From Loktanella sp. 3ANDIMAR09 (lineage in GTDB: Bacteria > Pseudomonadota > Alphaproteobacteria > Rhodobacterales > Rhodobacteraceae): a stretch of 64,000 bases of DNA. The DNA is taken from the NCBI RefSeq assembly GCF_001420005.1, contig NZ_LJAK01000004.1, positions 248,001 through 312,000 on the forward strand, in the 5' to 3' direction. The position numbers and the translations under genes are program-made. Shown piece by piece: positions 7,267 to 41,852 of the stretch (the stretch's first letter is position 1; every line of letters begins with the position of its first letter). The notes beneath the pieces are model-generated. The model was not told where the DNA came from. It ran no database searches and worked only from the letters and a program-made list of their open reading frames with translations.

Positions 7267-7353
7267 TGGTGCGGTCGGGGGGACTCGAACCCCCACTCTT
7301 GTTACAGAACAGCGACCTCAACGCTGCGCGTCTACCAATTCCGCCACGACCGC
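7267..7353 (-). tRNA. tRNA-Leu (anticodon GAG), CCA encoded
   Basis: On the minus strand the acceptor arm GCGGTCG pairs with CGACCGC, followed by discriminator A and an encoded CCA (7267-7269). The D-arm reads GGCGGAATTGGTAGACGC. The anticodon stem-loop is CAGCG-TTGAGGT-CGCTG, giving anticodon GAG (reads CUC and CUU). A long variable arm typical of class II tRNA follows, then the T-arm with GGTTCGAGTCC. The total is 87 nucleotides with CCA. No integrase or duplicated 3' end was seen nearby. Confidence 0.95.
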
Positions 7354-39785: not shown

Positions 39786-40967
39786 TTATGACCCGGCTAT
39801 GTCGAGTGCCTGCGTCAGATCGTCCAGCAGATCGCCCGCATCCTCGAGGCCGACAGACAACCGGATCAGACCCGGTGTGATGCCCAGATGTGCCTTTTGG
39901 TCGGCGGGCAGGCGCTGGTGCGTTGTAGATGCAGGCGGCGTCGCAATGGATTTCGCATCGCCCAGATTGTTCGAGATCAGCCAGATTTTCAGGGCATTCA
40001 ACAGTTTGAAGCTGGCCTCTTTTGACCCGGTGTCGATGGCCAGCAAGGTGCCGCCACAGCCCATCTGCGCCATGCACAGGTCATGCTGCGGATGGCTGGC
40101 AAGGCCCGGATAGATCACGCGTGTCAGGCCGGGATGCCCTTCCAGACCGCGGGCAATCTGTTCGGCGCTGGCTGTCTGTGCGCGCACGCGCAGTTCCATG
40201 TGCTCCAGGCTCTTGACCAGCGTCCAGGCGGTAAAGGGCGACATCGAGCCGCCGGTATGTTTCATGTAGGTCTCGATCGGACCCCGGATGAAATCGCGCT
40301 GGCCCAGGATCACGCCGCCCAGAGACCGGCCCTGCCCGTCGATGTGTTTCGTGGCCGAGTAGATCACGACATCCGCGCCCAGCTCAAAGGCCCGCGTATA
40401 GACCGGCGTGGCAAAGACGTTGTCGACCGTCACCATCGCCCCCTTGTCATGGGCGATCTGCGACACGGCGGCGATATCAACGGCCTCCAGCGCGGGGTTT
40501 GACAGGCTCTCGAAAAACACGACCGTGGTGTCGTCGCGCACGGCAGCACGCCACTGATCAAGATCGGCACCGTCCACGAATGTCACCTCGACCCCGAAAC
40601 GCGGCAACACGACCTCCAGCACATAGAGGCAGGACCCGAACAACGCGCGCGACGACACAACGTGATCGCCCGCCTTGAGCGTGGCCATCAGCGCGCCCGA
40701 CACGGCCGCCATGCCGGATGCACAGGCAAATGCGTCCTCGGCCCCTTCGATTGCGGCGATCCGATCCTCGAACATCGCGGTGGTGGGGTTGCCGTAGCGG
40801 GCATAGATGAATTCGTCGTCGCCAGCGGCCTCGAACCGGGCCTGCGCATCCTCGGCCGTGGGATAGACAAACCCCTGCGTGAGAAAAATCGCCTCGGACA
40901 CTTCGCCGTATTGGCTTCGGCGTGTGCCTGCATGGACCGCCTTGGTCCGCTTGTTCCAGTTCGACAT
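39786..40967 (-). CDS. metZ: O-succinylhomoserine sulfhydrylase
   Basis: Makes homocysteine directly from O-succinylhomoserine and sulfide in methionine synthesis. 393 residues of the Cys/Met-metabolism PLP family: ARYGNPTTAMFEDRIAALEG-like start, FACASGMAA for phosphate binding, TVDNVFATP for the cofactor Asp, and the Schiff-base Lys in YSATKHIDGQGR. The SIATPPASTTHQRLP ending fits MetZ. Cystathionine gamma-synthase is an alternative, but the leader supports MetZ: a SAM-II riboswitch and a terminator lie directly upstream (41029-41081 and 40990-41017). The ribosome site GAAAGGG lies just before ATG 40967. Confidence 0.94.
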   Translation of the reverse strand: MSNWNKRTKAVHAGTRRSQYGEVSEAIFLTQGFVYPTAEDAQARFEAAGDDEFIYARYGNPTTAMFEDRIAAIEGAEDAFACASGMAAVSGALMATLKAGDHVVSSRALFGSCLYVLEVVLPRFGVEVTFVDGADLDQWRAAVRDDTTVVFFESLSNPALEAVDIAAVSQIAHDKGAMVTVDNVFATPVYTRAFELGADVVIYSATKHIDGQGRSLGGVILGQRDFIRGPIETYMKHTGGSMSPFTAWTLVKSLEHMELRVRAQTASAEQIARGLEGHPGLTRVIYPGLASHPQHDLCMAQMGCGGTLLAIDTGSKEASFKLLNALKIWLISNNLGDAKSIATPPASTTHQRLPADQKAHLGITPGLIRLSVGLEDAGDLLDDLTQALDIAGS

Positions 40968-40989
40968 ATCAGGCCCTTTCAAGGCAAAG

Positions 40990-41017
40990 AAAAACCCCGA
41001 CACCACAGGTATCGGGG
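40990..41017 (-). terminator. Rho-independent terminator in the metZ leader
   Basis: Minus strand: CCCCGATACC, loop TGT, GGTGTCGGGG (10 pairs including one G-U), then TTTTT. It sits between the SAM-II aptamer and the metZ start, so transcription must pass it to reach metZ, as expected for an expression platform. Confidence 0.85.
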
Positions 41018-41028
41018 CAAACCCCTCA

Positions 41029-41081
41029 CCCTTTTAGCGGAATGTTTAACGTGGTCCGCAATCCGGCATCAAATCACCACG
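41029..41081 (-). ncRNA. SAM-II riboswitch (metA/SAM-alpha motif)
   Basis: On the minus strand the leader shows in order CGTGGTGATTTG, a GC-rich loop CCGGATTGCGG, CCACGTTAAAC and CCGCTAAAAGGG. The invariant GTGATTTG, CACGTTAAA and GCTAAA blocks of the SAM-II pseudoknot are all present. P1 pairs CGTGG with CCACG. The riboswitch binds S-adenosylmethionine and lowers methionine-gene expression. It is placed right behind a promoter and ahead of a terminator and metZ. Confidence 0.93.
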
Positions 41082-41086
41082 CGCAT

Positions 41087-41115
41087 CGCATACGCCCGAC
41101 CGCCCCGTGGGTCAA
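41087..41115 (-). promoter_or_regulatory. Promoter of the metZ leader
   Basis: TTGACC (41115-41110), a spacer of exactly 17 bases, and TATGCG (41092-41087) on the minus strand. Transcription would begin at about 41080, on or just before the first bases of the SAM-II aptamer. Confidence 0.6.
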
Positions 41116-41201
41116 GCAGGCGGCAGCGTTGCCTCGCCGTGGATTGTCGTGAATAGTCATATGCGCGGCAGTCGCGCCGCCGATTGCACACAGGCTGGAC
41201 C

Positions 41202-41852
41202 ATGCCGGACCCCATCGACCTATATTTCTGGCCGACGCCCAACGGATGGAAGGCGTCGATCATGCTCGAGGAATGTGGCCTGCCCTACGTGACGCATCTG
41301 ATCGACATCGGCGCAGGCGACCAGCATGCCCCCGCGTTTCTGGCAATCAGCCCCAACAACCGCATCCCCGCCATCGTGGACCCTGACGGGCCGGACGGCG
41401 CGCCGATCTCGATTTTCGAGTCGGGCGCGATCCTGCGCTACCTGGCAGACAAGGTCGGACGCCTCGCGGGTGAGACACCTCGCGACCGGGTTGCGGTGGA
41501 CCAATGGCTGATGTGGCAGATGGGCGGCCTTGGCCCGATGGCGGGTCAGGCGCACCATTTCCTGAAATTCGCCCCGCGTGCAGGCCACGACATCCCCTAT
41601 GCCCAGGACCGCTACCGGGGGGAAACCGCGCGCCTGTATGGCGTCATGGACCGGCAGCTGTCGCGCACGGAATTTTTGGCCGGGGACCAGTACAGCATTG
41701 CGGATATCGCCTGCTGGGGCTGGGCGTCCCTGTGGCAAGGTCAGCAACAGACGCTGGATGACAAACCCCACCTTGCACGCTGGCTGGAAACGGTCAGCGC
41801 GCGTCCCGCCGTGCAGCGCGGCAGGGCCCTGCACGCAGAACTGCGCGGCTAA
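41202..41852 (+). CDS. Glutathione S-transferase, YfcG/YghU-like (nu class)
   Basis: 216 residues. A thioredoxin-fold N-terminal domain (DLYFWPTPNGWKASIMLEECGLPY; NRIPAIVDPDGPDGAPISIFESGAILRYLADK with the cis-Pro and ESGA glutathione contacts) precedes a helical C-domain (VDQWLMWQMGGLGPMAGQAHHF, SIADIACWGWAS). The TPNG start replaces the Ser/Tyr of classical GSTs and matches nu-class enzymes, which act as disulfide reductases on glutathione. It is divergent from the metZ leader. The start at 41202 was chosen over a TTG at 41184. Confidence 0.9.
   Translation: MPDPIDLYFWPTPNGWKASIMLEECGLPYVTHLIDIGAGDQHAPAFLAISPNNRIPAIVDPDGPDGAPISIFESGAILRYLADKVGRLAGETPRDRVAVDQWLMWQMGGLGPMAGQAHHFLKFAPRAGHDIPYAQDRYRGETARLYGVMDRQLSRTEFLAGDQYSIADIACWGWASLWQGQQQTLDDKPHLARWLETVSARPAVQRGRALHAELRG

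Follow-up and report, generated by a model that had tools for sequence, protein, structure and literature searches.

The DNA analysed here, a stretch of 64 kb referred to below as the window, carries metZ on its minus strand behind a short leader, and the question raised by this locus is whether that leader is a SAM-sensing RNA and, if so, at which level it would control the gene. An initial annotation had described a SAM-II riboswitch leader in which promoter, aptamer and terminator are all present and had proposed control at transcription termination. We favour the same reading, a SAM-II riboswitch that would switch metZ off at the level of transcription, with a probability of about 0.8.

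A covariance search of the whole window with the Rfam SAM-II model (RF00521) gave a match at 41013–41090 on the minus strand with a score of 57.9 bits (gathering score 36; E = 2.2e-10) and a full-length alignment covering model positions 1–79 of 79. The match is not due to chance, and the annotated SAM-II class therefore holds; by this likeness, the copy in the window would be expected to bind SAM. The sequence blocks GTGATTTG, CACGTTAAA and GCTAAA follow each other in this order on the minus strand, 3' of the start of P1, and all of the parts that had been named, from promoter to start codon, are found between 41115 and 40967. At gathering score, Rfam gives just one further match in the window, a tRNA gene (7270–7353, minus strand). 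The aptamer consists of the following elements:

41013–41090, minus strand: SAM-II aptamer, delimited by the RF00521 match with flanking model positions included
41050–41081, minus strand: P1 hairpin CGTGGT...ACCACG, from the RF00521 structure line and pair counts in same-genus leaders
41065–41067, minus strand: GCC, 5' strand of the P2 pseudoknot (our own assignment)
41028–41031, minus strand: GGGU, putative 3' strand of P2, whose proposed alternative partner is the ACC of the terminator 5' arm (the toggle)

Relatives provide the material for judging these elements. RF00521 matches were found in nine of nine same-genus genomes, with one match per genome. The search of 295 family genomes, run with stricter filters, yielded a match at E ≤ 0.001 in 236, with 232 above the cut-off, and no SAM-II match in 59. 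In total, 141 SAM-II loci were collected (134 from the family), of which 136 were parsed by pattern. Loci L005, L032, L033, L130 and L132 were not parsed, although L032 and L033 did enter the same-genus alignment, and six parsed loci from other families were excluded. The remaining 130 family loci include the window (L001) and L031, which has an identical leader, and are mostly the better-scoring matches; they do not represent a random sample and are related by descent. P1 is paired in 97.9% of cells among eight distinct same-genus leaders. The P2 pairing GCC:GGU is possible in the window leader with one G-U pair included, and all three pairs (G-U allowed; 5' strand against GG plus the next base) can form in 114 of the 130 parsed family loci, a count that leans towards pairing because the best-fitting GG was chosen and P2 is short.

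The metZ leader is the only SAM-II match in its own 3.67 Mb genome. A tandem SAM-II/SAM-V arrangement was considered and dropped, as the genome gave no SAM_V match; this absence is weakly shown since the SAM_V model was silent in the control genomes as well. A SAM-SAH riboswitch (RF01727, 47.9 bits) is present at L062 (contig C13, 53593–53641, minus strand) upstream of a frame that we assign to MetK by reading its sequence rather than by a model. The genome thus has SAM-sensing RNAs of two kinds, which matches what is described for Rhodobacterales.

The gene downstream of the aptamer and its ribosome-binding site are as follows:

39786–40967, minus strand: metZ, O-succinylhomoserine sulfhydrylase, 393 amino acids (TIGR01325, 516.4 bits; cut-off 510.05)
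40974–40980, minus strand: GAAAGGG, ribosome-binding site of metZ, downstream of the terminator

The model score confirms metZ as the target, and the gene has a ribosome site of its own, as had been annotated. A metZ-like frame lies directly downstream of the aptamer in 129 of the 130 parsed family loci, the exception being L026, in which the best metZ-matching piece begins at residue 152. On the other side, the metZ leader shares a short intergenic region with a divergent glutathione-S-transferase-like gene (41184–41852, plus strand), the best NCBIfam match of which, to a GSH-dependent disulfide bond oxidoreductase, is below the cut-off.

The position of the ribosome site bears on an alternative in which the aptamer controls translation, with the ribosome site hidden in P2, and the terminator is a constitutive attenuator. 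The first element is modelled on the proposal made for the Sargasso Sea metX RNA and the second on a suggestion for S. meliloti metA. The P2 3' strand, AAAAGGGU, does resemble a Shine–Dalgarno sequence, but metZ has its own GAAAGGG, located past the terminator and 6 nt before the ATG (40967), which itself lies 61 nt after GGGU. A comparable spacing is seen in the family, where the extrapolated MetZ start is 63–139 nt after GCTAAA in 129 of the 130 parsed loci. Direct occlusion of this distant ribosome site by P2 was therefore rejected. According to the available text on S. meliloti metA (PMC9373788), a distant Shine–Dalgarno sequence is required for translation there and the terminator that follows SAM-II is not predicted to respond to SAM, both of which lend the translational alternative some credit. 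Taken together with the conservation of terminators and competing pairing described below, we regard it as unlikely.

For the transcriptional reading, the first part to be considered is the promoter, the two elements of which were read directly from the sequence:

41110–41115, minus strand: TTGACC, −35 element; TTGAC is found upstream of P1 in relatives
41087–41092, minus strand: TATGCG, −10 element, 17 nt after the −35 element; the spacer is kept in relatives

TATGCG ends 5 nt before P1, which begins at 41081. As a stand-alone match this promoter is weak: a strict sigma-70 scan, in which the −10 box must end in T, does not list it, and TTGAC-N18-TAY occurs twice in the 64 kb window against 0.79 expected, with 20 of 100 shuffles reaching two. 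Only its retention at this position in relatives makes it convincing. Of the 130 parsed family loci, 122 have TTGAC no more than 60 nt upstream of P1, where mononucleotide shuffles predict 4.5, and a hexamer starting with TA follows after a 17 nt spacer in 118 loci and after 18 nt in two. Among these 120 loci, the −10 box ends 5–8 nt before P1 in 108. The layout annotated as TTGACC-N17-TATGCG thus recurs with similar placement in most of the family loci examined, and the initial proposal that the transcript begins with the first base of the aptamer fits this distance; transcription would likely start at the first base of P1 or within one or two bases of it, as judged from the spacing of the promoter.

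The second part is the terminator, which comprises the following segments:

40995–41017, minus strand: terminator hairpin of 10 bp (11 with a flanking G-T) and a 3 nt loop, found by the scan, with its pairs kept in the genus
41017–41008, minus strand: terminator 5' arm, CCCCGATACC
between CCCCGATACC and GGTGTCGGGG, minus strand: terminator loop, TGT
41004–40995, minus strand: terminator 3' arm, GGTGTCGGGG
40990–40994, minus strand: U tract TTTTT, continuing as CTTT

A simple scan of positions 40900–41250 finds this hairpin as its one terminator-like site. The scan is weak on its own, since shuffled sequences give 0.5 sites on average, and the real test is the family comparison. A terminator with a free energy below −8 kcal/mol is predicted in 113 of the 130 family leaders (median of these −17.5 kcal/mol), whereas five mononucleotide shuffles gave 2, 4, 5, 7 and 7 such leaders of 130. 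All of the terminator pairs are kept in the eight distinct same-genus leaders, with one pair being A-U in five of them and G-C in three; this single double change in the same-genus alignment is within the shuffle control (mean 0.8, with 414 of 500 shuffles reaching it). The 10 bp stem followed by TTTTT, which lies at 41017–40990, had been identified correctly.

The 17 parsed family leaders in which the free-energy criterion gives no clear terminator include L003, L019, L030, L036, L065, L087, L110 and L129, as well as L061 and L108, which by eye have hairpins with interrupted or offset T runs. Some lineages among these 17 may rely on translational control instead or may no longer be controlled.

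Regulated termination would call for a structure that competes with the terminator, and a candidate is formed by the P2 3' strand and the following segment:

41022–41025, minus strand: GGGG, candidate antiterminator partner of CCCC in the terminator 5' arm, from a fold cut before the outer 3' arm of the terminator

At low SAM, GGGU-GA-GGGG (41031–41022) would pair with CCCC-GAU-ACC (41017–41008) to form the antiterminator, which consists of GGU:ACC with flanking G-U pairs and GGGG:CCCC. This would hold the 5' arm of the terminator, so that RNA polymerase would read into metZ. With SAM present, P2 would close by pairing of GCC (41067–41065) with GGU (41030–41028), the antiterminator would lose its GGU:ACC half and the 10 bp terminator would then form, releasing a short RNA of about 90 nt.

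The predicted antiterminator is the best fold of the window leader before the outer 3' arm of the terminator has been made (−12.8 kcal/mol). In length-by-length folding of the window leader, the antiterminator is favoured up to 84–85 nt with P2 free, whereas the terminator is favoured from about 82–83 nt with the aptamer strand held; at 83 nt, the terminator probability is 0.01 and 0.80, respectively. The two sets of folds are clearly apart only at about 82–85 nt, the terminator wins in both from 86 nt onwards and the GGGG:CCCC half of the antiterminator is still possible with P2 held. The decision would therefore fall during transcription, within a short stretch.

Taken alone, the window leader has no significant antiterminator pairing (4.02 expected pairs against 3.48 for shuffles, p = 0.48), which favours the translational alternative, and the same-genus leader L011 falls below its shuffles (2.91 against 3.39). 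In the same-genus alignment, one of the four GGGG:CCCC pairs is missing in one of eight distinct rows and there are no compensatory changes in the antiterminator. It is the family that argues for the pairing and against a purely translational switch. In 113 family leaders, 5.13 pairs are expected between the 3' strand of P2 and the 5' portion of the terminator, compared with 3.36 in dinucleotide shuffles; the value is above the shuffle mean in 108 of the 113, with p ≤ 0.05 for single leaders in only 31. Minimum-energy folds pair the first GG of the P2 strand into the 5' part of the terminator in 96 of 113 cases and catch at least three of the six outer bases of the terminator arm upstream in only 74. 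In a permutation test on 28 strand variants, each counted once and represented by one species, the cognate strand–arm pairing averages −6.69 kcal/mol compared with −5.89 kcal/mol for permuted partners, and 14 of 20 000 permutations are as good. The cognate strand outperforms other strands in 23 of the 28 variants and other arms in 20, with the rest failing. Kinship can inflate both the shuffle test and the permutation test.

An antiterminator in which the GGU of P2 pairs with the terminator 5' arm is thus plausible on the basis of the family. The proposal that control is exerted at transcription termination is backed by the terminators in the family, by the alternative pairing and by the fact that the ribosome site of metZ lies beyond the terminator. 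For the family as a whole, we rate as somewhat better than even the chances of an expression platform built on one shared strand, in which the GGU of P2 would pair in turn with ACC/GCC of the aptamer loop and with ACC-like partners in the 5' arm or loop of the terminator, with strand and arm changing together. If true, this would provide a general sequence-level model of SAM-II transcriptional control.

The closest experimental parallel is the metZ SAM-II leader of S. meliloti. In the available text of Scheuer 2022 (PMC9373788), this leader gives an RNA of about 100 nt that increases with SAM while metZ mRNA decreases, and the authors attribute the short RNA to termination. According to the same source, the promoter is less active and the RNAs are more stable at high SAM, so that an increase in the short RNA alone does not prove regulated termination. 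A further alternative would accordingly have the aptamer bind SAM and the hairpin terminate, with RNA stabilization as the main action and termination largely unregulated. The greater stability of both the metZ and metA RNAs of S. meliloti at high SAM, along with the change in promoter activity, speaks for it (PMC9373788), but the opposite courses of metZ mRNA and short RNA in the same account, and the antiterminator complementarity across the family, make it very improbable. The transcriptional OFF switch is thus retained as the preferred reading.

Much of this anatomy is already in print. The accessible part of Corbino 2005 (PMC1273637) notes promoters close to the consensus immediately ahead of P1, finds terminators in many SAM-II leaders and proposes an OFF switch; promoter position, terminators and OFF logic all date from 2005–2007. 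A 2007 survey called transcriptional control by SAM-II not yet experimentally established (PMC2258182), and a 2024 review, in the text available, treats SAM-II as mainly a translational switch (PMC10907184). Our addition is confined to the family-wide test of the competing strand, for which no precedent was found in the literature searched, the supplement of the 2022 paper being outside that search.

Compared with known systems, the metZ leader is an ordinary case of the SAM-II class, with the usual gene order and parts, and class, gene and anatomy had all been correctly recognized. It shares with SAM-II/SAM_alpha (RF00521; the metA motif of PMC1273637, as far as the available text describes it) the aptamer core with P1 and P2, the methionine gene downstream, the promoter a few nucleotides before P1 and the intrinsic terminator, and it contains nothing outside the class. 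Its P2 is apparently only 3 bp (GCC:GGU), whereas loci from other families such as L002 can, by eye, form a longer P2. Leyn 2014 (PMC4239095, available text) reports that SAM_alpha, present in Rhizobiales and Rhodobacterales, lies upstream of metY in most cases (26 of 30 genomes of two lineages) and that SAM-SAH lies upstream of metK, and the present genome resembles this Rhodobacterales regulon in having SAM-II at metZ and SAM-SAH at the MetK-like frame. The target named there is metY, whereas the model match here is to O-succinylhomoserine sulfhydrylase (metZ); our guess is that these are one gene under two names. The S. meliloti riboswitch that yields the sRNA RZ (PMC9373788, available text) agrees in gene, aptamer class, predicted terminator switch and a product of about 100 nt, and presumably differs in lineage from the window genome. 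The window leader is thus a well-formed further example of SAM-II, compact in that promoter and start codon fit within about 150 nt, and offers a construct for the little-studied transcriptional branch of the class with a specific three-base toggle.
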